This document shows, piece by piece, positions 266 through 32,498 of a DNA stretch of 39,355 nt. The stretch lies in IMG/VR virus record IMGVR_UViG_3300038435_000035, positions 1 to 39,355 of that record; one strand, 5' to 3'. Source of the stretch: a virus. The notes beneath the pieces were generated by a model, which worked only from the letters and a program-made list of their open reading frames with translations, did not search any database and had not been told where the DNA came from. Positions within the stretch are counted from its first letter, which is position 1; each line of letters opens with the position of its first letter. The translations under genes were made by a program, and so were the position numbers.

Positions 266-510
266 TTAGTTGTTTGCCTTTCAATTACTTGCCTATCGGT
301 TAGGCATTTATCCACTTCTATCAAATGCTTGCCAAGTCCGGCATTAATAAGTGCGTCTTCTAGCCGAAAGACCCTCTCTGCTAGTTTTTGCGTCTGGTCA
401 GCCAAGAGGCTGGTTGCCTGCACAAGCTCGGTGAGTATTGAAGCGGTAGTTCGCTGGGCATCCATATACGGCTCTCCGGGTCTTCCCCCTGGATGTACAT
501 TCTTGTTCAT
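262..510 (-). CDS. Small phage protein, unknown function
   Basis: 82 aa. The N-terminus is Gly/Pro/Arg-rich (HPGGRPGEP). The middle, about residues 20-60, is a heptad-like amphipathic helix (LTELVQATSLLADQTQKLAE) that suggests an oligomerising coiled coil. The start ATG overlaps the upstream stop (TAATG) and the stop overlaps the downstream start (ATGA), so translation is probably coupled in this minus-strand cluster. I do not recognise a family. Confidence 0.65.
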   Translation of the reverse strand: MNKNVHPGGRPGEPYMDAQRTTASILTELVQATSLLADQTQKLAERVFRLEDALINAGLGKHLIEVDKCLTDRQVIERQTTK

Positions 511-3784: not shown

Positions 3785-4275
3785 GCGATAGCCTTCATGT
3801 AGTTGATGGTCAAACCGGCCAAGTAATTTTGTTTGACGCTAAAGGCGAAAAGCCTGCCGACCTGCCCAGTTTTGTGGGTCTTTTTGAGCAGATGGGTGGC
3901 AACGTGCACAAATTCTGCCAATTTATGGGCTGGTCTGATATCCAACTTTCTTTGTTTAGGGTTGAAGAAATGCTGGCTCAGCCCGACAATGCCGAGTACC
4001 GTAGACGGTGGAAGCGAGCCTATGACCGGCATGTAATCACCCGCTTGCGAATTAACCAGTTAAAGGCGCTCGACAAGCTCGACAACATTAACGATGAAGA
4101 CAAGCAAACAGACGCCATCAACTTTGCAAAGCTCGTTCTTGGTGAATACTTCACTGCTCAAATTCAAACCGCCAAGACGCCCAAATCCGGCGAAGCGCCT
4201 GACGTTGTGCCCGGACAAGCCGAAGATGAAGACGCCGCGCTAGAGAGAGCAAGGCAGGACTTTGATGGCACTTAG
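3781..4275 (+). CDS. Probable terminase small subunit
   Basis: 164 aa. Assigned mainly by position directly before the large terminase (11-base overlap) and by composition. An N-terminal helical segment (GGNVHKFCQFMGWSDIQLSL, about residues 39-58) resembles the helix-turn-helix with which small terminases bind pac/cos DNA. A charged, mostly helical middle follows (RRRWKRAYDRHV), with an acidic tail (PGQAEDEDAALERARQDFDG) suited to contacting the large subunit. Similarity to known small terminases cannot be established by eye. Confidence 0.6.
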   Translation: MSDSLHVVDGQTGQVILFDAKGEKPADLPSFVGLFEQMGGNVHKFCQFMGWSDIQLSLFRVEEMLAQPDNAEYRRRWKRAYDRHVITRLRINQLKALDKLDNINDEDKQTDAINFAKLVLGEYFTAQIQTAKTPKSGEAPDVVPGQAEDEDAALERARQDFDGT

Positions 4276-6911: not shown

Positions 6912-7211
6912 ATGGAATACGTATTGTTTGTACTGTTCTTCGCGGTGGGCAATGCCGTAGCTAATGCCTGGTTCATGCGTGCCGCTTTGGAGAAATACCA
7001 TAAAGACAAATTACTTCCAGCGTTGCAACTTCAGGCATATCAAGATATTCCGGTAGAGGCTCATACGTTTTGGGATTATCAGGTTCCACCCAAACAAACA
7101 GCACCGGCTGAAAATATAATGTCCGTCGCGCCTAATCCAAAGGAGCCGAGACGGCCGCTTGAAGGCGAAGCGTTAGATAACCTATACGAGAGGGTGCGCA
7201 GTGGCTATTGA
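6912..7211 (+). CDS. Small protein with N-terminal membrane segment
   Basis: 99 aa, RBS AAAGGGG. Residues 1-25 (MEYVLFVLFFAVGNAVANAW) form one hydrophobic segment, followed by a charged helix and a proline-rich tail. The stop overlaps the GTG start of the portal gene by 11 bases. It is probably a single-pass inner-membrane or virion-associated protein; unknown family. Confidence 0.55.
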   Translation: MEYVLFVLFFAVGNAVANAWFMRAALEKYHKDKLLPALQLQAYQDIPVEAHTFWDYQVPPKQTAPAENIMSVAPNPKEPRRPLEGEALDNLYERVRSGY

Positions 7212-9129
7212 TTTCATGAGGATCAATTGGGACAACGTAAAGAAGTTTACGCCCCAAACATACTTGGAATATCAGATGGCCCCCATCTGGGAAATTGATT
7301 CGCCGAACTTCAATGGACCCGAAGATTATTCCGGCTACTATTGCCAGCTCTTACAGGGCTTTGCCGTAGCCTCAAAAGCCATCATTGGCAGATGGCAACA
7401 ACGCGGCAAGCAGTCTGCCCGGGCCTTGGAGCAATCCCAAAACCCAAGCACGCCAATATTTGATTTTGACGGTGCTCTGGCTGCCGAGCCGCTGCCTATC
7501 GCAAAGGCTCAAGTGGACGAGAAGGTGGCTCTTTTGGCATCTAATCCCCCTCAGCCGATGGTATTGCCTCAACAGGAAGAGCAAAAGGAATATTGCGCTG
7601 CACTCAACCAGCTCATGGATATGGTCTTAGAAGATAACGATTATGAGCTTCTGGTAGCAAAAGGCTATTACGATATCCAGTTTTGGAATACGGCCATCTA
7701 TAAATGGGTCGTTGATGACTTCGAGCCGGGCATTTTAAACAGCCAGGGCAGAATTATTCTTGAGCGAATTAGTCCCGAGGTTGTTTTCTTTGACCCTAAG
7801 TGCAAAGAACTCAACGCCAAGTACATGGATTACATTGTCCAAAAGCACGAGATGGAAAAGGGCGAGATTCAGCATATGTACCCGTTTGTCGGGGATATGG
7901 TGAGTGATGACGCTGACGAATTGATATCCGACACGTCTGTCAGTGCTCGCAATAATGAGGACTACATTCAATCGCCTCAGCCGAAGTTGGCACGGGATGC
8001 AGCCGGAAAGCGTCAAAAAATCACGGTTCTTGAGTGCTGGATACGAGATAGTCGCCTGAAATTTGAACCACTTATTAAAGATGGCAAGTCCGATAATTAC
8101 GAAGAGCGTTTTAAGTTAGACGAGGATGGCTACATTATCGGCAACTGGGTGCCCCGGTATCCCAATGGCCGCTTAATTATCTGTACTCGGGATGTCATAT
8201 TAAAGGATATGCCCAATCCGTTTGCACACGGACAATTCCCCTTTGTCTTTGCCCCTGGCGCACCGGCTAGTCAATGCGCTAGTGACGGTGACGCTAACCG
8301 GATTATGACGGTGACGCGGAAATATAATGACATCATTGCGGACATTCACCGATATTACCAATCTGAAATTAAGCGCCCTATGCACGCGGAAGCTGGCGCG
8401 ATTTTAGACCCAAATCTAGCCCAGCAAGTGCCAAATGACCCAAGCTATATCATTGAACTGGCACCAAATAAGGCGCTTGTTCGTCCTCCTGCTATGGATA
8501 TTCCACCTCTGGCTATCTCCTATCTGCAAGGTTTACAAGGTGTCTTGGATACCGTTTCGGGCTCATCAGGCGTAATGCGCGGCAATATTTCCGATGGCGC
8601 CCAATTGTCAGCCGAAGCGCTAGCGAACCTTCAAAATTACGCATCCTCCCGCTTGGCATTGTCGGCAAAGATGTTTAATGGCGCTATGAAACAACTCTTT
8701 TATCAGCTTATGTGGCTTTTGAGACAGTATGTCAAGCAGAATATCAAGGTTAATGTGGTGCTTCCAGATGGCACAACGAAGCCGATTGACTGGGCTTCTG
8801 ACCGAAAAACATTTGAATTAGGAGATCCAACCGAGATTCAAAACCTTCGCAAGAACGAGGATTACTTGATAACCCTTAAGGCTGGTACGGGCAATCCTGG
8901 CGCTCAACAACAACAACAGGCGCAGTCGTTAGCTCTCTTTAGGGAGGGGGCGATAGACCAAAAGGCTCTTCTAGACGGGCTCCAATATCCAGGCAGGCAA
9001 GACATTATCACTCGCATGAGAGCCGAGAAGCTTCAAGACATCGAAAGCCGAGCTATTGGCAAGGAGCTTGGTATCGCCTTAGAAGAGACTGCCAAGCAAA
9101 AACGGCCAGGTCGTCGCACTAAGGACTAA
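7201..9129 (+). CDS. Portal protein
   Basis: 642 aa. The dodecameric portal forms the DNA channel at the head vertex and docks the terminase. Start GTG 7201 is preceded by GAGGG; ATG 7216 is an alternative. Supporting features: an early SGYYCQLLQGF segment, the FDGALAAEPLP and KAQVDEKVALL helices, the ISPEVVFFDPKC segment, and a helical stretch with SGVMRGNISDGAQLSAEAL (from about residue 456), where portals typically carry a conserved 'selected/unselected pool' helix. It ends in a Gln-rich, charged C-terminal helix region. Size and location after terminase agree with podoviral portals. Confidence 0.85.
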   Translation: MAIDFMRINWDNVKKFTPQTYLEYQMAPIWEIDSPNFNGPEDYSGYYCQLLQGFAVASKAIIGRWQQRGKQSARALEQSQNPSTPIFDFDGALAAEPLPIAKAQVDEKVALLASNPPQPMVLPQQEEQKEYCAALNQLMDMVLEDNDYELLVAKGYYDIQFWNTAIYKWVVDDFEPGILNSQGRIILERISPEVVFFDPKCKELNAKYMDYIVQKHEMEKGEIQHMYPFVGDMVSDDADELISDTSVSARNNEDYIQSPQPKLARDAAGKRQKITVLECWIRDSRLKFEPLIKDGKSDNYEERFKLDEDGYIIGNWVPRYPNGRLIICTRDVILKDMPNPFAHGQFPFVFAPGAPASQCASDGDANRIMTVTRKYNDIIADIHRYYQSEIKRPMHAEAGAILDPNLAQQVPNDPSYIIELAPNKALVRPPAMDIPPLAISYLQGLQGVLDTVSGSSGVMRGNISDGAQLSAEALANLQNYASSRLALSAKMFNGAMKQLFYQLMWLLRQYVKQNIKVNVVLPDGTTKPIDWASDRKTFELGDPTEIQNLRKNEDYLITLKAGTGNPGAQQQQQAQSLALFREGAIDQKALLDGLQYPGRQDIITRMRAEKLQDIESRAIGKELGIALEETAKQKRPGRRTKD

Positions 9130-9692
9130 TGTCTGCCGTAATGTTCTAAAGCATGACAATTGGGGCAAAGTATTTCTAAATTTTCTAATTCGTTGTTCTT
9201 TCTGTTCCTATCCTTATGATGAATGACCAGAATATCGGTATTTGTGCTGTAAGTGCAGCGATTGCAGTGGGTTAATAAGCCGTGCGTTTTAAACCATTTT
9301 CGAGCAAAATCGGCATTTCCCGGCCTAGCCGAACGCCGAACTTGATTTCGGCAACTCTTGCTACAGCATTGAATAGGTGAGGTTTTTAAATGAGACGGGG
9401 ATCTCAGAAAGCGTGTTTCACAAAAAGCGCATTTGACCAAGATGCTTCCAACATTTGCTTTGTAATAGCATTGTTTTGAGCAATATTTGGCCGTTTTGAT
9501 TCTGCACGGGATAACACTAAACTCTTTGTTGCATATAGCACAATTAATAATGCGGCTAGGATGGGATTGGTGCCACCGAAAACCGCATTTTCGGGAACAG
9601 AATCGGAAAGTTGCTTGCCGATAGTGCGGAATCTTGACTGCTATGTTACATTGTTCACAGTTTAAGAATTTTGGAGAGTATACTCTTGCCAT
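9126..9692 (-). CDS. HNH homing endonuclease with three N-terminal zinc-finger repeats
   Basis: 188 aa on the strand opposite to the structural genes. Three consecutive Cys4 modules are seen: CEQC with FCSRKC (12-36), CAIC with YCSKQC (51-75), CAFC with CCSKSC (88-114). The C-terminal HNH domain has CNRC (143-146), VIHHKDRNRKNNELENLEIL (157-175) and CPNCHALEHYG, with the HH pair and the LENLEILCPNCH helix of the betabetaalpha-metal fold. Selfish nicking or cutting endonucleases of this type spread into intergenic sites. Start ATG 9692 is used; it overlaps the TTG start of the plus-strand gene at 9686 by 7 bases, and its stop overlaps the portal stop. Confidence 0.88.
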   Translation of the reverse strand: MARVYSPKFLNCEQCNIAVKIPHYRQATFRFCSRKCGFRWHQSHPSRIINCAICNKEFSVIPCRIKTAKYCSKQCYYKANVGSILVKCAFCETRFLRSPSHLKTSPIQCCSKSCRNQVRRSARPGNADFARKWFKTHGLLTHCNRCTYSTNTDILVIHHKDRNRKNNELENLEILCPNCHALEHYGRH

Positions 9693-9844
9693 TGAATAAA
9701 TCAACCTCTAAGAAAGCCTTTAGCGATAACGTGAGCGAGTTACGCCATTCAGATTATCCGCAAAAGCAGGCTTTGGCAATTGCCTACTCGGTTCAACGGA
9801 AAGCAAAACCAGACAGTTCTAGCCGACAGGAGAAACGAAAGTAA
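9686..9844 (+). CDS. Small basic phage protein ('KKAFSxNV...PQKQALAIAYSV' type)
   Basis: 52 aa. It is supported by GGAGAG seven bases before a TTG start at 9686 and by a TAATG overlap with the next gene. It contains KSTSKKAFSDNVSELRHSDY followed by PQKQALAIAYSVQRKAK, a pattern I recall as a widespread short phage and bacterial protein of unknown function, often near head genes. Strongly basic tail (SSRQEKRK). It would otherwise lie directly after the portal but is separated from it by the minus-strand HNH gene. Confidence 0.75.
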   Translation: MPLNKSTSKKAFSDNVSELRHSDYPQKQALAIAYSVQRKAKPDSSSRQEKRK

Positions 9845-10407
9845 TGGCAAGTTTAAATCCCAATAAATTGGCGAACGTATTACCGGGGGCGGGCACATCA
9901 TTTGCCGTGAACGGGAGCACTGAAATATTTACAGGTAGCGTTGACTCCGCGTGTTTGGCGGCTGGCGCCGTTGGAACGGACGCAATCGCTGCCAATTCGA
10001 TAACATCTGCCAAGTTAGATACCGGACTGCTTCAATACGTCGCCGTTCCTTTGACTTCGGCTCAAATCAAAACAATGTTCACTACTCCGGTAGTGTTGAT
10101 TGCTGCGCCTATTGCTGGTAAAGCCGTCATTTTAGAGAGTCTTGATTTTGAAATGACCCGAACCGCAACCGCATATACATCTGGTGGCACTGTCTCAATC
10201 CAATATACTACCGGTCCCGTGGCTGCAACAAATACGATTGCCTCAACCGTTGTCACCACTGCTGGTGCAGCCGTAACAGATACTTTCAGAGATGCTATTG
10301 ATGCTGATGTTCCTTCTGCTAGCGGCATTGAAATTACAAATGCGACTGGTGTATTCGCTACAGGAACAGGGACGGCCATTGTGCATCTCTGGTACAGAAC
10401 CATATGA
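9844..10407 (+). CDS. Probable minor head/decoration or fibre-like structural protein
   Basis: 187 aa. The N-terminal part carries repeats of the sort AIAANSITSAKLDTG (about 50-64), typical of phage head-fibre or tail-fibre stalk segments. The C-terminal part is Thr/Val/Ala-rich and beta-stranded (GTVSIQYTTGPVAATNTIAS), consistent with a jelly-roll or Ig-like surface domain. It lies between portal and scaffold, so a head-associated role is likely. Its stop overlaps the HNH start (ATGA). Confidence 0.6.
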   Translation: MASLNPNKLANVLPGAGTSFAVNGSTEIFTGSVDSACLAAGAVGTDAIAANSITSAKLDTGLLQYVAVPLTSAQIKTMFTTPVVLIAAPIAGKAVILESLDFEMTRTATAYTSGGTVSIQYTTGPVAATNTIASTVVTTAGAAVTDTFRDAIDADVPSASGIEITNATGVFATGTGTAIVHLWYRTI

Positions 10408-10860
10408 CAATTGATTGTTATGATGATTTGCTAAAGAGAACAAAAGCCAGTAACGGTTGTCTAGAGTGGCAGGGTGCCCGCAACCCATACGGGTTTGTTC
10501 ATTTCAAAGGTATTATGAAGCTCACTCATAGAGTGACTTGGGAATTGCACAACGGCCCAATTCCGAAAGGGTTGGTGATTCGTCATGAATGTCACAACCC
10601 TCCCTGTGTAAATATCGAACATTTGAAGCTAGGAACGTACAAAGAAAATACTCAAGACGGTATAAAAGCCAATCGTATAACTCCGCGTGGTGAATCCAAC
10701 GCGGGAGCAAAATTGACAGAGAAAGAAATGCTGTTTATTTATCGTCGGCTCAAGGGGTTGATACCGCAACGTCGAATAGCGGAAATATTTGGCGTTAGCC
10801 GCGAAGCCGTATCAGCCATCATGACCCGACGCAATTGGAGATTTGTCGAGATATGACAAT
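10402..10860. repeat. 10-bp direct repeat flanking the HNH cassette
   Basis: ATATGACAAT occurs at 10402-10411 and again at 10851-10860, exactly at the upstream and downstream gene junctions of the HNH gene. One copy contains the stop of 9844-10407 and the HNH start; the other contains the HNH stop and the start of 10853-11272. Removing one copy plus the DNA between leaves a perfect ATGA overlap between the two structural genes. Confidence 0.8.
10404..10856 (+). CDS. HNH endonuclease (HNH_3 type) with C-terminal HTH
   Basis: 150 aa. The N-terminal HNH_3 domain has NGCLEWQGARNPYGFVHF (17-34), the HRVTWELHNGPIPKGLVI helix-strand, and the active-site block RHECHNPPCVNIEHLKLGT (60-78) with His and Asn ligands. 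After a linker (TPRGESNAGAKLT) the C-terminus (about 105-150) is a small helix-turn-helix with RRIAEIFGVSREAVSAIMTR, a common DNA-targeting module in such genes. It interrupts two structural genes and is bounded by a 10-bp direct repeat, so it is probably a mobile freestanding endonuclease. Confidence 0.88.
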   Translation: MTIDCYDDLLKRTKASNGCLEWQGARNPYGFVHFKGIMKLTHRVTWELHNGPIPKGLVIRHECHNPPCVNIEHLKLGTYKENTQDGIKANRITPRGESNAGAKLTEKEMLFIYRRLKGLIPQRRIAEIFGVSREAVSAIMTRRNWRFVEI

Positions 10861-12400: not shown

Positions 12401-13435
12401 ATGGCAGTATTACTTGCACCAGATACAGTTAATTCCAGTACGTTAGGTTACTACAATCGACGTGCAAGGGACCAATTCTTCACTTCGACATCAGGCTTTC
12501 AGTTTTTGCTGAATAGCGGGATCAAGCCAGTCGATGGCGGTATCACGTATAACCAGCCAATCATCTATAACACCTCGCCTCAAGCTGGTGTCTGGGGTGG
12601 TGGCGTTCAGCAAATCCAAGCCAACTTTATTCCAAACACAACTTTGGCCACATGGTCGCCAGCCTACTACTACGGTGCTATCGGTATTCCCGATACCGTA
12701 GCCATTCAAAACCAAGGCCAATCTCAGATTGTCGATATCGTCGAAGCTCAATACGAGCAGATGGTAATGGCTTTGATTGAACGTCTGGGTATCGACTTCT
12801 ATGGAAATGGGGCGGCTCAAGGTGGTTTTTATCCTATTCAAGGTCTTGGTGCGCTGGGTACTTCTGGCAGTGACCCTGCTGTGCCTTACGGCAATATTTC
12901 TCGTGTCGGCTCTTCGGGCTCATGGTCTGCTCCGGTAGGTCAAGCCCCTTGGTGGAACGCAGCGGTTATTTCAATTAACGGCGGCGCTCAATCAGTATGG
13001 TCGAAGCCTTCTGTCAATCCTGGCACTAGCACACTCATGTCTTACAATGCTTTGTTTGCATGGCTGTTAGCTGGTTCGGTCGGCATGTACCGCCCGATGT
13101 GTGGCTTCACTGACGCAATTGGCTATCAGGCAATTGGCAATCTGTTTGTAGCCATTGCTCGTGAGTCTTCCGTTGAAAAAGTCTTTGCAAACGGGCCGCA
13201 AGGCTTAGATTTTGCAGGCATCCCAATCTTCCAAGATGACAAATGCACATCTGGAACACTGTACGGTCTGAACGACATGCTTGAATTGCGTGTCTGGAAG
13301 AACGCGCTATTTGTTGAGACTCCTTGGAGACAACCAAGTAACGCAATGGTTAACGTGAAGTTCCTCTTGCTCATCGCAGCAATGGTACATTCACGCCCAA
13401 ATACCGTGCCAATTCTCACTGGAATTACTGGTTAA
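12401..13435 (+). CDS. Major capsid protein (probable HK97 fold)
   Basis: 344 aa, with a strong GGGGGAAG RBS. It sits directly after the scaffold and before a decoration-like gene. The sequence is uncharged, Gly/Ala/aromatic-rich, with a long helix around QSQIVDIVEAQYEQMVMALI (about 107-126; the spine-helix position) followed by GIDFYGNGAAQGG, then a domain with an IARESSVEKVFAN segment and a C-terminal strand region. This arrangement fits an HK97-type coat protein. Fold assignment is by inference. Confidence 0.8.
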   Translation: MAVLLAPDTVNSSTLGYYNRRARDQFFTSTSGFQFLLNSGIKPVDGGITYNQPIIYNTSPQAGVWGGGVQQIQANFIPNTTLATWSPAYYYGAIGIPDTVAIQNQGQSQIVDIVEAQYEQMVMALIERLGIDFYGNGAAQGGFYPIQGLGALGTSGSDPAVPYGNISRVGSSGSWSAPVGQAPWWNAAVISINGGAQSVWSKPSVNPGTSTLMSYNALFAWLLAGSVGMYRPMCGFTDAIGYQAIGNLFVAIARESSVEKVFANGPQGLDFAGIPIFQDDKCTSGTLYGLNDMLELRVWKNALFVETPWRQPSNAMVNVKFLLLIAAMVHSRPNTVPILTGITG

Positions 13436-14785: not shown

Positions 14786-16549
14786 ATGACAGAAACCCCG
14801 AAAACAACGATAGAAGATGCGCGGAAATATATTAATCTACTCAACTTAGACGGTGGGTTAGTTACGTCTATTGGCGCTTTGTCGCTCGGTCCAAATCAAA
14901 CGCCGGACGCTCTCAACGTATTTGCTTACGAGGCAGATGTTAGATATCGGGGCGGTTATTCACAATTTTCCACGCTGGCCGGTTCGGCTGATGCTGACGA
15001 AACTTATTATGACAACGCGCAAATTAAACACATGCTTGTCTGGGCTCTTGGCGATATATATGACGTGGCGAGCGGCGCACCCGTCTTGATTGCTTCCGGC
15101 GTCTATACGCCCGGCGAACAAATTGCAAAAGCAGAATTAAATGGTGTTTTGTATTGGGCAACGCTGACAGTTCCTTTGCGTCAATACGACGGCATCACAG
15201 AAATGGCAGTAGTGGGAAGCGCTGGCGTTGGCGTAGTTGCGCCTCCCGCTTGTAATTTCTTGGTGGCTTATGCCGGTTCTTTGGTGGCTGTCTTCCCTGT
15301 GGTTGGCGGCGTTCCGTTTCCAAGCGCCTTCATGTGGTCTAACGTAAATGATCCCTCGACTTGGCTGGGGGCCAACATTCAAACGGTCGGCTCTAATGAT
15401 GGCAGTGCGTGCACCTTTGCCTTATTGATGGGCATCTCGCCCGGCTCGGTTGCAAATCCCGGCATACCCGCCACAAGACAATTGCTCATCGGCAAAACGA
15501 CTAAAAATCTCTTTTTATACCAAGGCGCTTTAGGCTCTTTGACAGAAAACGCCGTGCCTTGCCCGGTTGGAACTCTAGACGCTAACAGCGCCGTTTACAT
15601 TCCCACGAAGAAAGGAATGGGGGCGGTGATGTTTCTAGGGAGTGATGCTCAATTCTGGATAACCAACGGTGTTGAAGCTCAACCCGCAGGCGATAATGTT
15701 CAAAATACAGTTTATGCGCTTGTGCAAAATGCCCTGATTCTTAACGCTGACCAGAAATTCCACGCTACTTATAATGATCGCTTTCAATACTACCAATGCG
15801 ATTTAGGCAGTGGCTACCAGTTTGTTTACCGCTGGGAAAGTGAGGCTTGGTGGCTGTTCCAGGGTTGGCCGTCTGGTCCTTACATGATATCGCCAGGCAA
15901 TGACGGACTGCCCGCCATCTTCGTGGCATCCCAGCAACCGGGAATTACCGGGGTTTATCAAATAGCCTTAGACCAAGCGACCGACAACGGGGCAATGCCT
16001 CCCACTTATTACTACACTCCATATATTCATGGGGCTAAGCCGGAACGTCAAAAATGGTTCCAAACCTTCACGCTCTTTACTTATAACGTCGGCGTTCAAT
16101 ATAAAGTGACCGGCTTCTCGATGCCGCGCAGTGACAACACGACCCAAGTTAGTACCGAATTGATATTTAACGACCCGGCGGTGGGAGCCGTTACGCCTTT
16201 AGGTGCTGGTGGAATTTGGGATGTCTCCGAATGGGACGATGCTTTATGGGGCGGCGGCTTCAATAGCTTGGCTCAACCATATCAACCGGCCGCTATGCAC
16301 GGGCGTTTAAAAGTGCCATCACAGGGAACTATCTGGGTGCCTGCCGGACAGCCGGAGCCATTGAAAAGTAGTGCTTGCCAATTTAAGATAGAGTGGAGCG
16401 ACGGGGTTGCCGACTTTAGAATGATTGGGATAAGTATTGGATTTGTCTTTAGAGGAACAGGATTCGTTGGCTCATTGCCATTCCAGACAACCGGAAACGT
16501 GGTGCCTGGCGGCCCAAGTCCATACACCAATTTAGGAGGTTCGCAGTAA
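14786..16549 (+). CDS. P22 gp10-like tail stabilisation/nozzle protein
   Basis: 587 aa. The start LLNLDGGLVTSIGALSLGPN is the typical opening of phage stabilisation (gp10/nozzle) proteins, followed by DALNVFAYEADVRYRGGYSQ (Asn-Val ... Arg-Gly-Gly) and repeated blades (LVAYAGSLVAVFPVVGG, MWSNVNDPSTW, ITNGVEAQPAG) as in a beta-propeller. The C-terminal half is beta-rich (FSMPRSDNTTQVSTELIF). It forms the lower tail below the adaptor and supports podovirus morphology. Its stop overlaps the fibre start (TAATG). Confidence 0.75.
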   Translation: MTETPKTTIEDARKYINLLNLDGGLVTSIGALSLGPNQTPDALNVFAYEADVRYRGGYSQFSTLAGSADADETYYDNAQIKHMLVWALGDIYDVASGAPVLIASGVYTPGEQIAKAELNGVLYWATLTVPLRQYDGITEMAVVGSAGVGVVAPPACNFLVAYAGSLVAVFPVVGGVPFPSAFMWSNVNDPSTWLGANIQTVGSNDGSACTFALLMGISPGSVANPGIPATRQLLIGKTTKNLFLYQGALGSLTENAVPCPVGTLDANSAVYIPTKKGMGAVMFLGSDAQFWITNGVEAQPAGDNVQNTVYALVQNALILNADQKFHATYNDRFQYYQCDLGSGYQFVYRWESEAWWLFQGWPSGPYMISPGNDGLPAIFVASQQPGITGVYQIALDQATDNGAMPPTYYYTPYIHGAKPERQKWFQTFTLFTYNVGVQYKVTGFSMPRSDNTTQVSTELIFNDPAVGAVTPLGAGGIWDVSEWDDALWGGGFNSLAQPYQPAAMHGRLKVPSQGTIWVPAGQPEPLKSSACQFKIEWSDGVADFRMIGISIGFVFRGTGFVGSLPFQTTGNVVPGGPSPYTNLGGSQ

Positions 16550-18513
16550 TGGCTATTATTGTTTTGCCCTACACATTTGTCCCGCTGACAACAATTGTTG
16601 CCGGACAAGTCAACGCGAACAATACCGCCATTCTGACTCAAGTTAACGGCAACATCGACAATACAAATATCGCGGCTGCTGCAAATATCTCTCTAACAAA
16701 ACTCGGCTTGTCTCCTGGTGGCGCGGCCTTCAATAAAACAACCACGGGCGCCCAGACTTGGGGAAGCGGCCTAACGACGGATACTCAGCCCCGTGTGGTT
16801 ATGTTTTCTGACCAAGGCTTACAATTTGGCCCTGGTGGTGCCACCGCTCCTGACGTTAAACTTCAACGCACGGCCACCAACACATTACGTCTCGCGCCGC
16901 CATCAACCGGAACCCTGATAACGGACTCGTTTGCTGGTGCTGCCTCAACAAACTTAACTGCTCATACCGCTGATACCGGCAACACATGGACGGCCACTCT
17001 CGGCACCATTCAACTGGATGGCGGCGGCGGTGTCTTCTGCCAGGCTGGTACGCCTGCGATTTATCTTGCTAGTGGAACTTTCAATAACATTCTTCGCCTA
17101 ACTTGGACGCTAGATTGTATGACTGACGTGCAGTTTGCTGGTGCTGGTTTTATTGACGGCTCCGGCAATATGTATTATTTGCAGTCTCTTAATTCAGGAA
17201 CGAGCGGCGGCGGCTGGCGTGTGAGCCGGTTACCTAGTGGTGGCGCTCCGACAACGCTATCAGAGTTACTCTCAACACCACTGTCAGCCGGACAACAATA
17301 TAGTGTGACCTTCACTTATAACAGCGATAGCATAACCGTTACTCTGACTTGGTCGGTGTACCAAGGTACTACCTTGATATGGTCAAGTACGACAACTGAT
17401 ACCACCTATCCGACCGCTACACAATGCGGCTTGTGGGCTTCGGGTGCGGTAACAACCACCACTGGACACCACGTTGGAGATTTTAACGGCGTCTATGGTG
17501 GTGCTGGCGTTCTCGATATGTTTGGTGGAGACGTAGATAATCCGACCAACATCACAATGAATGATTCGACATCCGTGTTGAACATGAATAACGGCTCTAT
17601 CACAAACGTGGGATCTCTGACATTCTTCGGTGGCGCAGTTGGTTTGCCCGGCGTTTTAAATTCCCAAATTAACGGGTTTAGAGTTAGCATTTCCAGCACA
17701 CCAGGGATACCAAACGATGGGAATACCTCGGCAAACACCTTGTATGTTACACCGTACACTAGCGGTTTAATGGGTTTGTACACCGGCACGCTCTGGAATC
17801 TTTATGAATCTACGGTAGCATTGTCGGTAACAATTCCAGGCACCACAAATACGGTCTATGATGTCTATGCTTACGTGAGTAGTGGTGCGATTACAATCGG
17901 ACTGCTTGCATGGAGTGGTATCAACACACCTCCTACGCGTGGATTGCAGGACGGGGTAATTTATACCAACGGTAGTGCGTTGTATCGGTTCCTTGGCTCT
18001 GTCATGACTGGCGCTGTCTCGGCACAGATCCCTGATACTGCCGCACAGCGATTTGTATGGAACTGGTATAACCCGATTAAGCGTCGTTGCTTTGCTCAAG
18101 ACCCAACTAACAGTTGGACTTATGGAAGTAGCACCATTAGAGCATCGAACGCCAATACCACAGACGGACAAGGAAGATTGGGTATCCTCATTGGGGTCGT
18201 TAACCAAACGGTTCAGGCTACTTTCTTCCAAGGCTCCGACCCAAGCTTGAATAACCTTGCTGCCTTTGCGGGCATCGGGGTTAACAGTACGACGGTCGCT
18301 ACTGCTCAATCTGCTGTCAATGGTGACACCACTTTTGGTGGTAATAACACATGCAGCCTGATAACAACGCTTGCCACCGCTGGGTATAACGCTTTGCAGA
18401 TGTTAGAGTGGGTTGGTCCTACTGGCAACAATATAGATTTTGCTGGGGATACGGCAATTGCCTCGAACTCAGCCGCCGGACCTTCGTTTATAATTGCAGA
18501 GGTAATTCAATAG
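16549..18513 (+). CDS. Tail fibre protein
   Basis: 654 aa without a signal peptide. The N-terminal region has a VNANNTAILTQVNGNIDNTN pattern plus ANISLTKLGLSPGG, typical of the attachment and stalk segment of phage tail fibres. A central Ig/lectin-like region follows (about 120-330: DSFAGAASTNLTAHTADTGN, SGNMYYLQSLNSG). The C-terminal domain (from about residue 375: TLYVTPYTSGLMGLY, YDVYAYVSSGAITI, LQDGVIYTNGSALYRFLGS, QRFVWNWYNPIKRR) is a tip domain also found at the end of the 1501-aa protein at 27993-32498. It probably binds the host surface. It is located next to the gp10-like tail gene. Confidence 0.8.
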   Translation: MAIIVLPYTFVPLTTIVAGQVNANNTAILTQVNGNIDNTNIAAAANISLTKLGLSPGGAAFNKTTTGAQTWGSGLTTDTQPRVVMFSDQGLQFGPGGATAPDVKLQRTATNTLRLAPPSTGTLITDSFAGAASTNLTAHTADTGNTWTATLGTIQLDGGGGVFCQAGTPAIYLASGTFNNILRLTWTLDCMTDVQFAGAGFIDGSGNMYYLQSLNSGTSGGGWRVSRLPSGGAPTTLSELLSTPLSAGQQYSVTFTYNSDSITVTLTWSVYQGTTLIWSSTTTDTTYPTATQCGLWASGAVTTTTGHHVGDFNGVYGGAGVLDMFGGDVDNPTNITMNDSTSVLNMNNGSITNVGSLTFFGGAVGLPGVLNSQINGFRVSISSTPGIPNDGNTSANTLYVTPYTSGLMGLYTGTLWNLYESTVALSVTIPGTTNTVYDVYAYVSSGAITIGLLAWSGINTPPTRGLQDGVIYTNGSALYRFLGSVMTGAVSAQIPDTAAQRFVWNWYNPIKRRCFAQDPTNSWTYGSSTIRASNANTTDGQGRLGILIGVVNQTVQATFFQGSDPSLNNLAAFAGIGVNSTTVATAQSAVNGDTTFGGNNTCSLITTLATAGYNALQMLEWVGPTGNNIDFAGDTAIASNSAAGPSFIIAEVIQ

Positions 18514-25261: not shown

Positions 25262-25365
25262 TGGATGAATGGATAACGATGTTACCCCATTGGAGCCCCT
25301 TGATTCTGCCGATGATTGCGGCGGGACTTCTGGCTTTTGGATTAATGCTAGAGATCCGGCCATAG
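25261..25365 (+). CDS. Candidate small one-segment membrane peptide (antiholin/holin-like)
   Basis: 34 aa from ATG 25261, which overlaps the stop of the upstream gene (TAATG). It has a short hydrophilic start (MDEWITMLPHW) and one long hydrophobic segment (PLILPMIAAGLLAFGLML), then a basic end (EIRP). It lies in a different frame within the first third of the next ORF. A tiny membrane peptide before the endolysin region is compatible with lysis control. Only the frame, coupling and hydrophobicity support it. Confidence 0.4.
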   Translation: MDEWITMLPHWSPLILPMIAAGLLAFGLMLEIRP

Positions 25366-25580
25366 CTAAAATATTAGCGATAGGATATGCCAGCGTCATG
25401 GTTGTACTTGCCGCTGGCTTTGTCCTTTTGTGTATTGTTATGGCGGTCCTATCATTCTTTCATCCCGATAAAGCAGGAGAGTTCCTGACGGTATTCGGCA
25501 TACCCGCAGCAACTCTCTTTGGTGCTTATATTGTCAAGGCGAAGAATAACGCCAAGGCTTACATTAAGAAGAAGGACTAA
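25269..25580 (+). CDS. Candidate holin
   Basis: 103 aa open frame overlapping the previous small ORF out of frame for 97 bases. Two hydrophobic segments are visible, about residues 38-64 (IGYASVMVVLAAGFVLLCIV) and 72-88 (FLTVFGIPAATLFGAYIV), and a basic tail (KAKNNAKAYIKKKD), the usual small two-pass holin plan. An ATG inside the first segment (VMVVLAAG) could be a later start. The stop overlaps the stop of the convergent recT-like gene. The endolysin is 1.5 kb downstream. Holin role inferred from topology and location. Confidence 0.55.
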   Translation: MDNDVTPLEPLDSADDCGGTSGFWINARDPAIAKILAIGYASVMVVLAAGFVLLCIVMAVLSFFHPDKAGEFLTVFGIPAATLFGAYIVKAKNNAKAYIKKKD

Positions 25581-26371
25581 TCCTTATAAGCTGGTTCATC
25601 TATGTTTTGCGCATCTTCGTGCGGAGCCGCATTATAACGAGAGAATCTGATAATCCCCTCGTCGTAAACAGCCTTTTCGCTGCTTGATTTAAGGGCGTTT
25701 TTTAGCCACATCTCGACATAGCCCACAGGCCAGCGATTTTGCTTGGCCATTTCGTGCAGATATTGCCAGTCTAATGGTTGGTCGGGCTTAGTAACTTCGC
25801 CCGTCTCAACGTCAGTGACCAAATCCTCATCCTTTACAAAGGTCGCTTTTGTTTCTGGAATAGCAACCGTTTGAGCCTTGGGGATAGTTTCTATTTCTGT
25901 TTCGTCCAACATGCCAAGACCAAGTAATCTAAGCGTGGCGCGTCTCATTGCTTTAGTCTCGGCTTTCATCAGGCTATTACAAAGAGAATCACCGCTTTGT
26001 CCTTGAACCGTGACGATGCCAGTAGCATCAGCGTGCCGACCATGCGGCATTGAGGCGCGAGCGGTGACAGAGGCCAGTCCTGATTGAATCTTCTTGTCCA
26101 TAATACTGATGCTGACATCGTGGATTCGACAAAGTTGCTCGGCGGCGGCCTTGGTGGCGTAAAGTGATTGCTTGCCGCCGGTCTTGAGAATCATAAACGG
26201 CTGAGTAAACGGGTCTAATCCTAGCCTGGTTGTAAATTCGCCGACATATTTAATTTTGTCTTGGTCGCTCAAGCTAGAAATGTCGCCTTTCAAAAAGACA
26301 TCATTTAAAAGCTTCTGGGCTTCGGCTGTAACCGGCAATTGTTTACTTTCGACACTTAATTGATTGGACAT
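25577..26371 (-). CDS. RecT/Redβ-like single-strand annealing protein
   Basis: 264 aa from ATG 26371 (AGGAG five bases upstream). A longer frame to 26413 would encode only the tandem 15-bp repeats. The core is LGLDPFTQPFMILKTGG (about 50-66), then a KQSLYATKAAAEQLCRIHDV strand-helix and an LMKAETKAMRRATLRLLGLG helix (about 138-157) followed by MLDETE. This layout and the 'GL-PFT...YATK...TKA-RR.T...GLGMLDETE' spacing match phage RecT/Redβ-family annealing proteins as I recall them. It promotes pairing of complementary ssDNA during recombination and replication. The partner exonuclease is not seen in the window. Family assignment is moderate. Confidence 0.7.
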   Translation of the reverse strand: MSNQLSVESKQLPVTAEAQKLLNDVFLKGDISSLSDQDKIKYVGEFTTRLGLDPFTQPFMILKTGGKQSLYATKAAAEQLCRIHDVSISIMDKKIQSGLASVTARASMPHGRHADATGIVTVQGQSGDSLCNSLMKAETKAMRRATLRLLGLGMLDETEIETIPKAQTVAIPETKATFVKDEDLVTDVETGEVTKPDQPLDWQYLHEMAKQNRWPVGYVEMWLKNALKSSSEKAVYDEGIIRFSRYNAAPHEDAQNIDEPAYKD

Positions 26372-26383
26372 AAGCTCTCCTTG

Positions 26384-26428
26384 GTGTACTGATATCAAGT
26401 GTACTGATATCAAGTTTACTGTATAATG
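26384..26428. repeat. Tandem 15-bp direct repeats (operator-like)
   Basis: GTGTACTGATATCAA is repeated exactly at 26384-26398 and 26399-26413, followed by a degenerate third unit GTTTACTGTATAATG at 26414-26428. Each full unit contains the palindrome TGATATCA. The array lies between divergent recT-like and RHH genes and overlaps a predicted plus-strand TATAAT. Confidence 0.85.
26422..26427 (+). promoter_or_regulatory. Predicted -10 element of the RHH gene promoter
   Basis: TATAAT at 26422-26427 lies inside the third repeat unit. The region at a -35 distance is occupied by the second repeat unit and has no good hexamer, so the promoter may need an activator or be repressed by a repeat-binding protein. 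Confidence 0.45.
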
Positions 26429-26660: not shown

Positions 26661-27039
26661 CGTCGAATATGTATTGTTTAAACACGTCAATGGCATCATG
26701 GAAAGCTATTTCCGGCTATGCAATTCTCAATCCTTGAAAGATGCGGCCGACTCTTTGCGTGACATCAACCTCAAGGCTATTGACCTAGAAGCTCAAGTCA
26801 AGCAGATACTCAACGCATGGGGCTGCCCGCCTGCCAAGATACTCAATGTGGGCGCTCGGACTTATGACACGCTTGACAGCAAGCTTTTAAATATGAGCCA
26901 CTTCTATAATAGGTACGCTTATTCCAAGCCGGAAGGAAAGGCGAAGGAATTGACAGCCTTCTATTACCTTATTAAAGATGCGCTTGATATCTCGGTGGAG
27001 ACAAAGCCCGAACATTATTACAAGGACCATTTGGCGTGA
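26620..27039 (+). CDS. Unknown helical protein in the RHH-endolysin operon
   Basis: 139 aa from ATG 26620 (GGAGAG five bases upstream). Largely helical with a central charged segment (RDINLKAIDLEAQVKQILNA) and one Cys-Pro-Pro motif (WGCPPAK). It ends with HYYKDHLA, and its TGA overlaps the GTG start of the endolysin. No family recognised; operon context suggests regulation or lysis support. Confidence 0.55.
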   Translation: MKLPEQNLLDALNSVEYVLFKHVNGIMESYFRLCNSQSLKDAADSLRDINLKAIDLEAQVKQILNAWGCPPAKILNVGARTYDTLDSKLLNMSHFYNRYAYSKPEGKAKELTAFYYLIKDALDISVETKPEHYYKDHLA

Positions 27040-27509
27040 AGAATAAAGAACTTGACTTGTTCCCTGATGATATCGTGTTGGCGGCGCAGAAGTCCGAGAA
27101 GGCGACCGGCTGCCCGGCTTGTATCACGCTTGCTCAGTGGGCGCTTGAATCCGGTTACGGAAAGCACTTGTCTGGCCGTAATAACCCTTTTGGTATCAAG
27201 TGGACGACTACCTGGAAAGATGGCTATACGCTTTGCAAGACACGGGAATTTATACGCGGCGAATGGGTAACTGTTAACGCCAAGTTTGCCAACTTTCCGA
27301 CGCTTGAGGCTGCATTTTCTCGACATGGTAACTTGTTGATGAATCCCAAAGGCCCATACAAACAAGGTGTCAAAGCTTGGGAAGCTTCCAAGGATTGGCA
27401 TATCTTTCTAAAGCTGATAGCTCCTGTTTATGCCACTGACCCGAAATATTTTGACAAAGTATTTGGCATCATCAAGCAATGGCAATTGGATAAGCTCAAC
27501 CTTAAATAG
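27036..27509 (+). CDS. Endolysin, glucosaminidase domain (endo-beta-N-acetylglucosaminidase)
   Basis: 157 aa, GTG start overlapping the previous stop. The whole protein is one glucosaminidase domain: CITLAQWALESGYGKH (residues 29-44) with the probable catalytic Glu38, then GRNNPFGIKW and a late FSRHGNLLMNP segment, the N...F.IK and S..D/H-rich motifs of the FlgJ/GH73-type family. It cuts the peptidoglycan glycan chain to lyse the cell. There is no signal peptide or cell-wall-binding domain, so release probably needs a holin. Single-domain form is typical for Gram-negative hosts. Confidence 0.85.
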   Translation: MKNKELDLFPDDIVLAAQKSEKATGCPACITLAQWALESGYGKHLSGRNNPFGIKWTTTWKDGYTLCKTREFIRGEWVTVNAKFANFPTLEAAFSRHGNLLMNPKGPYKQGVKAWEASKDWHIFLKLIAPVYATDPKYFDKVFGIIKQWQLDKLNLK

Positions 27510-27992: not shown

Positions 27993-30900
27993 ATGCAGTT
28001 GTTACTTTCAAGACTTTTAGCGTTTTTTCTGTGCGTACTTTGCACATTGCCTGCCTTCGCTGACGGCATTTCTGGTGGCGGCTCTGGTGGTGGTGGTTCG
28101 GGTACTGTTACTAGTGTTGGTTTGCAGGTCAATACCTTTCCCTTGGGTGTCACCTTTAGCCCTGTCACGACTGCCGGTACTATCCAACTTACTCCAACGT
28201 CAAAGACCATTGGCTCCATTATGTATTGGACGGCGGCCACTACCGTTGGAACGCTTGCGCCAGGAGCAGATGGCACCGTTCTCACTCTTGCCGGTGGTGT
28301 GCCTACCTGGGCCGCCGGTGGTTTGGGCACCGTCACAAGTTTCAGCGCCACGCCATCTGGTATCTTCGATGTGGCAACGGCAACGACAACCCCGGCGCTT
28401 AGTCTGGATAACCAGGCCGCTAATATTGTTCTCGCCGGTCCGACATCTGGCGGCGCTGCCACTCCATCATTTAGAGCGCTGGTTAGCGATGACATACCTA
28501 ACTTGGATGCTGCAAAAATCACTACAGGTACGTTTAGTAGCGCCTTAATACCGGCAATTAATTTAGCCGCTGGTGGTGCTGGTGGTGTAACCGGACTGCT
28601 ACCCATAGCCAACGGCGGCACCGCAAATGCTTCTTTGTCCGTCGTACAGGGTACTGTTTATTATGGTGATGGTTCTAAACTCGTGGGCTTAGCCCCTGGT
28701 ACATCAGGGCAGTTTCTAAAGACACAAGGAGCCGCTGCTGACCCGGTTTGGGATACTGTTAGCGGAACTGGCACGGTAACCAGCTTTAGTGCGACCCCAT
28801 CCGGCATATTTGATGTAGCTGACCCTACCACCACTCCTGCATTAAGCTTAGACAATCAGGCGGCCAACATCGTTTTAGCTGGCCCAACTACCGGCGGCGC
28901 CGCTACTCCTGCCTTTCGCTCTTTGGTTGCTGCCGACATTCCGACGATATCGTTAACCTCTGGGGTTAGCGGTGTCCTACCGATAGCCAACGGCGGCACT
29001 AACAATGGCTCGCTTTCTGTTACTCAAGGAAGCGTTTATTACGGTGACGGCTCCAAGCTTGTCGCGCTCGCTCCTGGTACGCTCGGCGAAGTTCTCACAA
29101 CTCAGGGTGCCGGCGCTAATCCAATTTGGTCGCCTGCCGTTGGAACTGGGACGGTAACATCAGTTGCTATGACTGGTGACGGTGTAATTTTCAATAGCAC
29201 CGTAGCTGGTTCCCCAATCACCACTACTGGAACATTAATTCCAGCCTTGTTGTCTCAAACCCAAAACACTGCATTGATGGCACCAGACGGAAGCGCTGGA
29301 ACGCCAACGTTTAGAGCCATTCTCAATGCTGACCTTCCGCTTATCTCAATTGCTAAAGGCGGTACGAATAACGCCTCTTTGTCGGTTGTTCAAGGTACTG
29401 TTTATTATGGCGACGGATCTAAATTGGTTGGACTGGCGCCTGGTACAACAGGACAAGTATTAACCACGCAAGGAGCCGCTGCTGACCCGGTTTGGTCTTC
29501 GGCTGGTGCCGGTACTGTTACCAGTTTTAGTGCAACTCCAAGTGGTATCTTTGATGTTGCCACTGCCACCACTACACCAGCTCTCAGTTTGGACAATCAA
29601 AATGCAAACATTGTTTTAGCTGGCCCTGCATCCGGTGGAGCGGCAACTCCAAGCTTTAGAGCCTTGGTGGAAGCGGATTTTCCTTCGACTACCAACTTTC
29701 ACCAAATGGCCAGTCAATCAAGTTCGCCTTTAACGTTGGCCAATACTGATGTCACTGTTCAGAATGTTACGACTGGCGCAAGTGCTTTTACTGTCAATTT
29801 ACCGGCTGGCAATGGAACGGGAATCAATAACAAAATCTTCTTGATAAAGAAGGCTGATAGCGGCGCCGGTGCAATTACTGTTACGCCGAACGCTGGCAAT
29901 TCTGACTTGATAGACGGTGCGGCAACTTACACGCTATCCAATCAATATGACTTTGTGGCTGTTCAATCTGATGGTGCCAATCCAGCCAACTGGCGCATTA
30001 TCGGTTACTTTAAGAGAGCCATCCAACCTTCTAATCAGTTTGTAACTGGTGCAACCGTTACTGGCTTCACTTATACTCAGCCTTCTGTAAGCAACCTGTC
30101 CGGCTTGCCTGTGACCGTTGGACAAGGCGGTACTGGTACGACTACCCTAACTAATCACGGGGTTGTTCTCGGGCAAGGAACCAGCCCGGTTGCAATTACA
30201 AGCGCGGGCACTACTGACTTTCCTTTAGTATCAAATGGAGCTTCGGCTGACCCGGCGTTCGAGCAATTGAGTTTAACGAGTGCTGTAACCGGCATTTTGC
30301 CTGTAGCAAATGGTGGCACAGGCGCATCAAGTTTAACTGATACCGCCTTAGTAATTGGTAACGGCACTGGTGCAGTTACTTTGGTATCACCAAGCGCGAC
30401 CGTAGGGGTTGCGGTAGTATCTCAGGGTGTTGGCGTTGATCCTGCTTACGGCACAGTGGTAGTCGCTGGCGGTGGAACAGGCAGAGCAAGCTTAACAGCA
30501 AACAATTTAGTTATTGGCGCTGGTACAACTCAAGTGACTTTACTCGCTCCAAGTGCCACTTCTGGTGTTGCTTTGATATCGCAAGGCACAGGCGTTGATC
30601 CGGCATACGGCGCTATTAATCTTGCCAGCACTTCAATTGTGACTGGTACGCTTCCGGTGGGCAATGGCGGCACAGGCGCAACTACGCTCACAAATCATGG
30701 CGTCTTGCTTGGTCAAGCAACTAGCGCAATTGTTGCTACTACTGCTGGTACAACGGACTACCCGCTTGTGTCCAATGGCGCAAGTGCTGATCCTGCTTTT
30801 GAACAACTTAGTTTAACTGCCGGTGTGCAAGGTGTATTGCCGATAGCAAATGGTGGCACTAACAATGGTTCTCTCGATGTCACGCAAGGGAACGTCTACT

Positions 30901-32498
30901 ATGGTGACGGAAGTAAATTAGTTGCTTTAACGCCCGGCACCAGTGGGTACGTATTAACGACGCAAGGCGCAGCCGCTAATCCTATCTGGGCTGCCGCAAG
31001 CGGTAATCCCACGGCAGGAACAAACGTAACCGTATCTGGTTCTACCGTTAATGCGATTGCTAATCTAGCTACTCAAAGCTCGTCGCCCGTAACATTAACC
31101 GGAACGTCAGAGACGTTTCAACTCGTTACCACCAGCACGACTTCAAACTTCACCATTAACTTACCGGCTGCTACTAATACTGGCAAAGTGTTTTGCATCA
31201 AGAAAGTTGATAGCAGTACCGGCAACATTCAAATCGTAAGAAATGGAACCGACACTATTGAGGGTGCTACTACTTATACAATGACCAGTGACGCTAATGG
31301 CGGGGAAAATACCGCCGTTTGGTTAGTTGCTGACGGTGTTAATAAATGGTATGCGATAGCTGACCATGTCACGGGCCTTACAACTTCGGCATTGCCTACT
31401 ACGTCGCTCTTAACGGGTGCAGGCGCAACTGGTGGCGTTCAACCTCTAACTATTGGGGCTGCTAATCAAGTATTGCGCGTTTCGGGGGGTGCCATAGGCT
31501 GGGGAAGTATTACGCTGAGCAGTACCAATGCAGTTAATGGGGTTCTTGCTACGTCAAACGGTGGTACTGGCTCGGCATCATGGGGACAGCAATATTGCCA
31601 AGGACGGCTAACGCTTACAACGGCCGTGCCTGTTACGACTGCTGATGTGACGGGCGCAACAACTGTGTACTTTACGCCGTACAACGGTAATCTGTTTGGT
31701 TATTTTGATGGCACTAATTGGACGGTAAAAACATTTACTCAAGCAAGTGTGAGCTTGTCCGGTTTAACTGCTAATTCTAACTATGATGTATTTGGTTATC
31801 TAAACGGTTCGGCGCTGAACATAGAAACTCTTGTTTGGGCGAGTGCAACGGCTCGGGCGACTGCTCTTGTGTTGCAAGATGGCGTCTGGGTTAAGGATGG
31901 TGCTACTGATCGTAGATATCTGGGCACGATTCGCATAACAGGAACTACTGGTCAATGCGAAGATAGTGTGACTCGTCGATATGTATGGAATCAATACAAT
32001 CGCGTTGATCGTACCGTGGTTGCAGATAGCACGCTCACCAGCTGGACGACTACTGTAAACGGAAGCTTTGAACGCGTTACCGCGACTGGTAGTGTCAACA
32101 CAGAAGTTGCTGGGGAAAATGCTGTATATATGGTAATTGGCTTAGTGGATAGTCCTGTATATGCGACAAGTGCCGCGTTTATTACGGGGGGTAATGCTAC
32201 TCGTAATGCGTATTTAGGTATGAATATTGGCTCAACCTCTGGAACAACTGATAGCGGGGTTACGCCAGCGACTACCACAACTGACTTTATGCGCGTTAGC
32301 GCAATCGGCGGCACCACCGGGACGGGCGCCAATTATGGTTTTAATTACGAAGGCTTTACAGCCATTGGATACAATGTTTTCACGTTCCTGCAACAATGGG
32401 GACACACTACAAGTTCGATGACTGTGTACGGACGTTCGGGCAATACACCGCCGAGCGCTCCGGGTAATTGCTACATGAAAGTAAGGACGTTAATGTAA
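27993..32498 (+). CDS. Exported fibre-like repeat protein with tail-fibre-type C-terminal domain
   Basis: 1501 aa, AAGGAAAACC RBS. It opens with a Sec-like signal peptide (LLLSRLLAFFLCVLCTLPAF, AFA/DG), then a Gly/Ser linker. The bulk is repeats. A YYGDGSKLV module (with GGTNNGSLSV... before and APGT-GQVLTTQGAAADP after) occurs about at 28610, 28985, 29350 and 30830. An SFSATPSGIFDVA module occurs at about 28340, 28785 and 29520. Related GGTG..LT modules run from 30115 to 30800. Two SSSPLTL/SSSPVTL beta domains lie at about 29710 and 31080. The C-terminal domain (from about residue 1200) is homologous to the tip of the tail fibre at 16549-18513 (VYFTPYNGN, YDVFGYLNGSALNI, LQDGVWVKDGATDRRYLGT, RRYVWNQYNR). 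A fibre with a signal peptide is unexpected for a virion protein. Confidence 0.75.
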   Translation: MQLLLSRLLAFFLCVLCTLPAFADGISGGGSGGGGSGTVTSVGLQVNTFPLGVTFSPVTTAGTIQLTPTSKTIGSIMYWTAATTVGTLAPGADGTVLTLAGGVPTWAAGGLGTVTSFSATPSGIFDVATATTTPALSLDNQAANIVLAGPTSGGAATPSFRALVSDDIPNLDAAKITTGTFSSALIPAINLAAGGAGGVTGLLPIANGGTANASLSVVQGTVYYGDGSKLVGLAPGTSGQFLKTQGAAADPVWDTVSGTGTVTSFSATPSGIFDVADPTTTPALSLDNQAANIVLAGPTTGGAATPAFRSLVAADIPTISLTSGVSGVLPIANGGTNNGSLSVTQGSVYYGDGSKLVALAPGTLGEVLTTQGAGANPIWSPAVGTGTVTSVAMTGDGVIFNSTVAGSPITTTGTLIPALLSQTQNTALMAPDGSAGTPTFRAILNADLPLISIAKGGTNNASLSVVQGTVYYGDGSKLVGLAPGTTGQVLTTQGAAADPVWSSAGAGTVTSFSATPSGIFDVATATTTPALSLDNQNANIVLAGPASGGAATPSFRALVEADFPSTTNFHQMASQSSSPLTLANTDVTVQNVTTGASAFTVNLPAGNGTGINNKIFLIKKADSGAGAITVTPNAGNSDLIDGAATYTLSNQYDFVAVQSDGANPANWRIIGYFKRAIQPSNQFVTGATVTGFTYTQPSVSNLSGLPVTVGQGGTGTTTLTNHGVVLGQGTSPVAITSAGTTDFPLVSNGASADPAFEQLSLTSAVTGILPVANGGTGASSLTDTALVIGNGTGAVTLVSPSATVGVAVVSQGVGVDPAYGTVVVAGGGTGRASLTANNLVIGAGTTQVTLLAPSATSGVALISQGTGVDPAYGAINLASTSIVTGTLPVGNGGTGATTLTNHGVLLGQATSAIVATTAGTTDYPLVSNGASADPAFEQLSLTAGVQGVLPIANGGTNNGSLDVTQGNVYYGDGSKLVALTPGTSGYVLTTQGAAANPIWAAASGNPTAGTNVTVSGSTVNAIANLATQSSSPVTLTGTSETFQLVTTSTTSNFTINLPAATNTGKVFCIKKVDSSTGNIQIVRNGTDTIEGATTYTMTSDANGGENTAVWLVADGVNKWYAIADHVTGLTTSALPTTSLLTGAGATGGVQPLTIGAANQVLRVSGGAIGWGSITLSSTNAVNGVLATSNGGTGSASWGQQYCQGRLTLTTAVPVTTADVTGATTVYFTPYNGNLFGYFDGTNWTVKTFTQASVSLSGLTANSNYDVFGYLNGSALNIETLVWASATARATALVLQDGVWVKDGATDRRYLGTIRITGTTGQCEDSVTRRYVWNQYNRVDRTVVADSTLTSWTTTVNGSFERVTATGSVNTEVAGENAVYMVIGLVDSPVYATSAAFITGGNATRNAYLGMNIGSTSGTTDSGVTPATTTTDFMRVSAIGGTTGTGANYGFNYEGFTAIGYNVFTFLQQWGHTTSSMTVYGRSGNTPPSAPGNCYMKVRTLM

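Follow-up and report, generated by a model that had tools for sequence, protein, structure and literature searches.

A phage fibre protein with a predicted Sec signal peptide, encoded in a three-gene cassette after the endolysin gene of a podovirus-like phage

Background

Why would a tailed phage place an export signal on a protein that is built like a tail fibre? This question is raised by a gene at positions 27,993 to 32,498 of the IMG/VR virus record IMGVR_UViG_3300038435_000035, which was analysed over its whole length of 39,355 nucleotides (the window). In textbook assembly fibres are put on particles in the cytoplasm, and the product of this gene, which we call P0001, begins with a predicted Sec signal peptide (SP). 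An earlier note on this DNA had described the SP, a linker, fibre repeats and a C-terminal tip matching that of P0002, the presumed virion fibre of the same phage, and had proposed that exported P0001 uses a copy of the virion tip to occupy host receptors, in the manner of the receptor-blocking protein Llp of phage T5. Here we weigh that proposal against the reading, to which we give about an even chance, that P0001 is a tail-fibre-type receptor-binding or adhesion protein in which a cleavable Sec SP has replaced the usual virion-attachment N-terminus.

Results

The signal peptide and the fibre body of P0001

An in-frame stop four codons upstream of the P0001 start allows no start farther upstream, the ribosome-binding site AAGGA lies 7 nt ahead of the ATG, and none of the later in-frame starts at codons 44 (TTG), 51 (TTG) and 77 (ATG) has a convincing ribosome-binding site. 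Codons 3 and 19 are also TTG and both are within the SP. Because of the upstream stop, the ribosome-binding site and the weak alternative starts, the possibility that the SP is a start-site artefact was rejected. Host contamination was likewise rejected, as phage head, portal and lysis genes are present and the window makes up an entire virus record. Residues 1-23 (MQLLLSRLLAFFLCVLCTLPAFA, followed by DG) score as a Sec/SPI signal by the rule-based caller of Sec/SPI features from which the SP calls in all comparisons come, having a basic n-region, a hydrophobic core and an AXA-type cleavage site behind a supported start codon. The score was reached by 11 of 20000 shuffles of the first 45 residues of P0001 itself, and random N-terminal shuffles passed the threshold of the caller in 28 of 4340 cases (0.65%). 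Export of P0001 is well supported by these sequence features. No lipobox cysteine of the kind expected for an Llp- or Cor-type lipoprotein precedes the predicted cut, and no outer-membrane anchor was seen on P0001.

The layout behind the SP (Table 1) also agrees with the earlier description of a Gly/Ser linker, fibre repeats and a related tip. The body holds GTVTS five times, YYGDGSKL and ANGGT four times each and DNQxANIVLAGP three times, and these motifs match fibres of Achromobacter phage Motura and Manatee Spring phage (MW202475), which are without an SP. Like a tail fibre, P0001 thus combines a repeat-rich beta body with a tip at the C-terminus that is homologous to those of known fibres, and to judge from their sequences both are ordinary phage fibre domains. 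No virion-attachment domain was found at its N-terminus, where the SP and the linker stand instead; family searches with P0001 gave no Pfam match and a PHROG match that was weak and not N-terminal. The mature protein would have 1478 residues, a mass of 146 kDa and 4 Cys, and with so few Cys an argument for periplasmic folding from Cys enrichment fails. Scanning the DNA of the locus for tandem repeats and promoters gave nothing above chance.

The tip domain and its relatives

Residues 1203-1492 of P0001 align with the P0002 tip encoded at 17674-18483 of the window with 33% identity (E 8.7e-21). The tip domain has no solved structure in the PDB, no Pfam match and no convincing PHROG match, and an AlphaFold model of it made from two sequences had a mean predicted local distance difference test score (pLDDT) of 30 and was not used. 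A scan of IMG/VR for the tip found 35 loci, of which 34, including some duplicates, have usable tips. These tips are carried by fibres whose N-termini are of many kinds, which indicates that the tip is a member of a widespread C-terminal fibre-domain family. Nearly all of the 34 outscore P0002 when compared to the P0001 tip, in a scan that was seeded with P0001/P0002 columns, confirmed with P0001 and is therefore biased to P0001-like sequences. In a tree of the tips P0001 and P0002 were not joined, and their joint clade was not rejected (p-AU 0.37). The idea that the P0001 tip is specifically, and recently, copied from the virion fibre of its own phage is thus not supported by the score ranking. 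In view of this ranking and the unjoined tree, P0001 reads as a modular fibre that has gained an export signal in place of its virion anchor, and not as a purpose-made decoy derived from the tip of the virion fibre.

Signal-peptide fibres in isolated Cellulophaga phages

The earlier note reasoned from the premise that phage tail fibres carry no SP, and this premise is contradicted by isolated marine phages. In Cellulophaga phage phi10:1 five consecutive genes of the fibre/tailspike region (345, 401, 777, 317 and 496 aa) each start with a canonical SP, and four of the five carry the GenBank note 'annotation based on experimental MS/MS proteomics analysis', in which MS/MS is tandem mass spectrometry. 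In phi19:1 there are four consecutive SP genes and all four have the MS/MS note, so that for eight of the nine SP fibre/tailspike genes in the two phages MS/MS underlies an annotation as virion protein. The other virion proteins that were checked in these two phages (portal, head/capsid, tail, tape measure) all lack an SP. In most of the Cellulophaga cases the residue after the cut is Q, which is the rule for signal peptidase in Bacteroidota (PMC10367356). Phage phi13:2 (L253), which belongs to a different family than phi10:1 (L127), has the same SP fibre genes, as seen from N-termini that are near-identical; this points to recent exchange and, at the level of sequence, to unrelated phages that infect one host species passing SP fibre genes to each other. 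No SP is present on the fibres examined in phi38:1, phi12:1, 11b and B40-8, and hence SP fibres are patchy, not universal, in Bacteroidota phages.

Signal-peptide fibres in metagenomic phages

IMG/VR was also scanned with the pattern GTVTSVG, which brings in some short spurious open reading frames (ORFs); the counts that follow are among the matches listed. About 106 ORFs had a defined 5' end and ten of these had SPs. With a stricter choice of start and a length of at least 250 aa, SPs were found in 6 of 91 motif ORFs compared to 6 of 290 others (p 0.04). Four of the six non-motif SP ORFs seem from their sequence to be spikes or fibres, two of them with weak Pfam support (Beta_helix in L019, Laminin_G_3 in L055). 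SP genes also cluster, since among 21 genes that neighbour a large SP ORF on the same strand 7 have an SP as well. Locus L010 has three SP genes in a row, one of them encoding a tailspike-like protein that is Cys-rich, and a Bacteroidota-type phage (L019:234-10409, - strand) has five SP genes in a run of six, including one for a right-handed beta-helix protein (Pfam Beta_helix). The same pattern was uninformative in GTDB genome contigs, where it hit mostly other proteins.

In the 45 kb contig L257 and its relative L051 an SP fibre ends in a Peptidase_S74 chaperone domain (E 2e-10). In both, the structural block has an SP-less fibre; internal proteins, a holin-like gene and a 129-aa protein come next, and then the SP fibre. 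When L051 is compared to L257, hardly any change is seen in the SP and the 45 mature residues that follow it, and the fibre body begins to diverge; the SP-less fibre falls to 45% identity and most structural proteins are at 85-99%. This divergence of the SP fibre resembles that of fibres with a constant N-terminal module. As a separate observation, a fibre ORF at L058:6980-8515 (-) has an internal SP-like stretch, LLRTTLATLILSALMLCGARAQ, as if an adaptor gene had been fused to an SP fibre.

The signal-peptide cassette and the rest of the genome

Directly after the endolysin gene there are three consecutive + strand genes with ribosome-binding sites and SPs, of which the earlier note had noticed only the middle one, P0001, although both neighbours have good SPs. 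The SP scores of the upstream and downstream proteins were reached by 4 and 36 of 20000 shuffles, respectively. The mature part of the upstream protein resembles uncharacterised tailed-phage proteins of about 100 aa, and therefore here too, going by this resemblance and the modelled fold, an SP appears to be joined to a phage-type fold as in P0001. The start codon of the downstream gene overlaps the stop of P0001 and its product has no family match. None of the three cassette proteins matched PADLOC anti-phage defence models. A fourth SP-like protein (MNVKQVSVLLGVLVSLSVQRVSA, followed by DDPWQ; 150 aa) is encoded at the opposite end of the record, at 510-962 (-), with a score reached by 4 of 20000 shuffles.

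Table 1. Features of the window discussed in the text
Feature	Position	Strand	Basis
P0001, signal-peptide-bearing fibre protein, 1501 aa	27993..32498	+	ORF, SP, tip homology
Predicted Sec-type SP, P0001 residues 1-23, predicted cleavage between AFA and DG	27993..28061	+	Rule-based caller
Gly/Ser-rich linker, P0001 residues 24-36	28062..28100	+	Sequence
P0001 fibre body, divergent repeats (GTVTS, YYGDGSKL, ANGGT, DNQxANIVLAGP motifs)	28101..31520	+	Repeats; fibre matches
C-terminal fibre-tip domain, P0001 residues ~1195-1501, family A2	31575..32495	+	33% to virion fibre; tip relatives
Upstream protein: predicted SP (MSKRLFVAIAVALVALLSSPVDA, then QAP) and small beta-sandwich, 129 aa	27575..27964	+	SP caller; AlphaFold mean pLDDT 59
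Downstream protein with predicted SP (MNQKLLLALLLGLLFMQGVQA, then REEIG), 150 aa	32498..32950	+	SP caller
Terminase	4265-6085		Distant matches
Portal	7201-9129		phrog_156
Major capsid protein	12401-13435		phrog_9953
P0002, SP-less fibre, presumed virion fibre	16549..18513	+	N-terminal stretch like those of other tail proteins; related tip
Small hydrophobic (holin-like) protein	25269..25580	+	Sequence only
Endolysin (glucosaminidase), no SP	27036..27509	+	PF01832, E 1.6e-21; phrog_3513

The gene order of the window is podovirus-like. P0002 sits in the structural block and is followed by large presumed internal virion proteins up to 24918. Relatives were sought in IMG/VR (fibre, terminase and 27560 protein), GTDB (fibre) and INPHARED (fibre, terminase, portal and capsid), and at the sensitivity used no close relative of the window phage was found, the terminase giving distant matches only. 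Two HNH/homing-endonuclease-like ORFs, 9126-9704 (-) and 10404-10856 (+), are inserted among the structural genes. A short direct repeat, GTGTACTGATATCAA, occurs twice at 26371-26413, just upstream of a RecT-like gene (25577-26371, -), and is a possible regulatory site.

Discussion

The explanation that we favour, at roughly balanced confidence, is that P0001 is a receptor-binding fibre that is routed through the periplasm and joins virions at or after lysis. We infer actual export and cleavage, periplasmic folding and attachment at or after lysis along the following course. P0001 would be made late together with its two small exported partners, the products of the flanking genes, and Sec would move it into the periplasm, where the signal would be cut after AFA and the protein would take on its fibre fold. 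Once the cell is opened by the endolysin, P0001 would meet the released particles and attach to them as an extra host-recognition fibre. In favour of this explanation are the MS/MS-annotated SP fibres of phi10:1 and phi19:1, the SP fibre genes shared with phi13:2, the SP fibres of L257 and L051, the SP genes of L010, and the ordinary fibre domains of P0001 itself. Several observations weigh against this explanation. The window phage already has an SP-less fibre, P0002, in its structural block, and P0001 is located after the endolysin, outside that block and without a recognisable virion-binding domain. An SP was found in 0 of the 34 tip relatives, and the scans gave no close relative that would show the SP to be kept in the lineage of the window phage. 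The virion evidence consists of GenBank MS/MS notes for other phages, and contamination of those virions by lysate is possible. Export of P0001, moreover, is judged from a rule-based call.

The main rival, which we regard as unlikely, retains the blocking function of the earlier proposal. P0001 would then not be part of the virion, and in the periplasm or on the surface it would mask receptors, thereby blocking superinfection or keeping progeny off the producing cell and its debris. The combination of an SP with a receptor-binding-type tip fits this, as do the separate SP-less fibres in the window phage and in L257, the position of P0001 next to the lysis genes and the two further SP proteins of the cassette, and other phages are known to export proteins that act at the envelope of the host, for example Lom of lambda and Llp of T5. 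However, phi10:1 and phi19:1 have SP fibres with a virion annotation, the P0001 tip is nearer to fibres of other phages than to the fibre of its own phage, a fibre of 1478 residues is large for a blocker, and with neither a lipobox nor an outer-membrane anchor seen its route to the outer face before lysis is unexplained. Of the earlier proposal, export is well supported by sequence, whereas its no-SP premise, the tip-copy idea and the analogy to Llp are weak.

The virion annotations in phi10:1 and phi19:1 would need no export at all if the hydrophobic N-terminus were an uncleaved anchor that docks the fibre into the particle and merely resembles an SP. We think this improbable, since these N-termini are full tripartite SPs with cleavage motifs, Q follows the cut in most Cellulophaga cases as the Bacteroidota rule requires, the SP feature is shared by the two small non-fibre proteins of the cassette, and shuffled sequences rarely match the SP score. 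There is a small chance that P0001 is a lysogenic-conversion or surface adhesin unrelated to phage entry, encoded by a moron cassette that gives the infected or lysogenic cell an adhesion fibre. A compact three-gene SP cassette beyond the endolysin would suit such a role, and so would a downstream protein without a family match, but P0001 has phage fibre domains as its body and tip, no partner for secretion across the outer membrane or for anchoring was seen, and no integrase or repressor was recognised among the window ORFs read, in which no systematic search for them was made.

More broadly, we tentatively propose, at somewhat less than even confidence, that there is a recurrent class of tailed phages whose receptor-binding fibres and tailspikes pass through the host Sec system and whose assembly is completed outside the cytoplasm, the fibres waiting in the periplasm or being released and binding to particles at or after lysis. 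Bacteroidota phages would belong to it, together with two or more podovirus-like lineages from metagenomes, one of them that of the window. In the open-access papers that we searched neither such a class nor SP fibres as virion parts were described; SP genes in phages have been noted as unknowns (PMC10367356, PMC5723332). If virion fibres are indeed Sec-targeted, part of the assembly of these phages would be extracytoplasmic, with consequences for fibre folding in an oxidising periplasm and for the sharing of free fibres in mixed infections. For annotation it would mean that a long phage protein with an SP may serve in receptor binding and not as a secreted effector. The idea of Sec routing is directly testable in cultured Cellulophaga phages.

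Comparison with known systems

The superinfection-exclusion lipoproteins T5 Llp and T1-type Cor are, like P0001, phage-encoded and exported, and the llp gene adjoins that of the receptor-binding protein; they are small lipoproteins, however, and P0001 is a long fibre without a lipobox. Llp, a small periplasmic lipoprotein, acts allosterically from the periplasmic face of FhuA (PMC9586334); it is therefore no mimic of a receptor-binding tip, and the proposed likeness in logic to P0001 does not hold. Lambda Lom is an SP protein encoded between tail genes (PMC12309495) but is an outer-membrane beta-barrel and not a fibre. In the Nixviridae of Porphyromonas gingivalis SP proteins that obey the Q rule have been proposed to modify the host outer membrane (PMC10367356); they are not described there as fibres. 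The tail spike of Pseudanabaena phage Pam5 (ON014757 gp18) has a related C-terminal tip, with E 3e-7 to P0002 and, in a small local search, E 5.8e-16 to the P0001 tip, but it has no SP and its identity is 26-31%.

The SP fibre/pectate-lyase genes of Cellulophaga phages phi10:1 and phi19:1 (Assiduviridae) and phi13:2 (Pachyviridae) are similar to P0001 in being phage-encoded with an SP joined to fibre/tailspike bodies, and in these phages as in the window several SP genes stand in a row. They differ in that their SPs are of the Bacteroidota type, that MS/MS virion evidence exists for phi10:1 and phi19:1, and that they lie directly after the tail genes, apparently with no other fibre-like genes beside them; these fibres were not shown to be related to P0001 in sequence. 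In the podovirus-like L257 and L051 the tip is the Peptidase_S74 chaperone and the 129-aa protein has no SP. As in the window, the SP fibre follows a holin-like gene with a 129-aa protein just upstream, there is a separate SP-less fibre, and the major capsid protein is in phrog_9953. Because blastp found no pairwise similarity between their proteins and those of the window, the shared arrangement is likely to be either convergent or anciently related.

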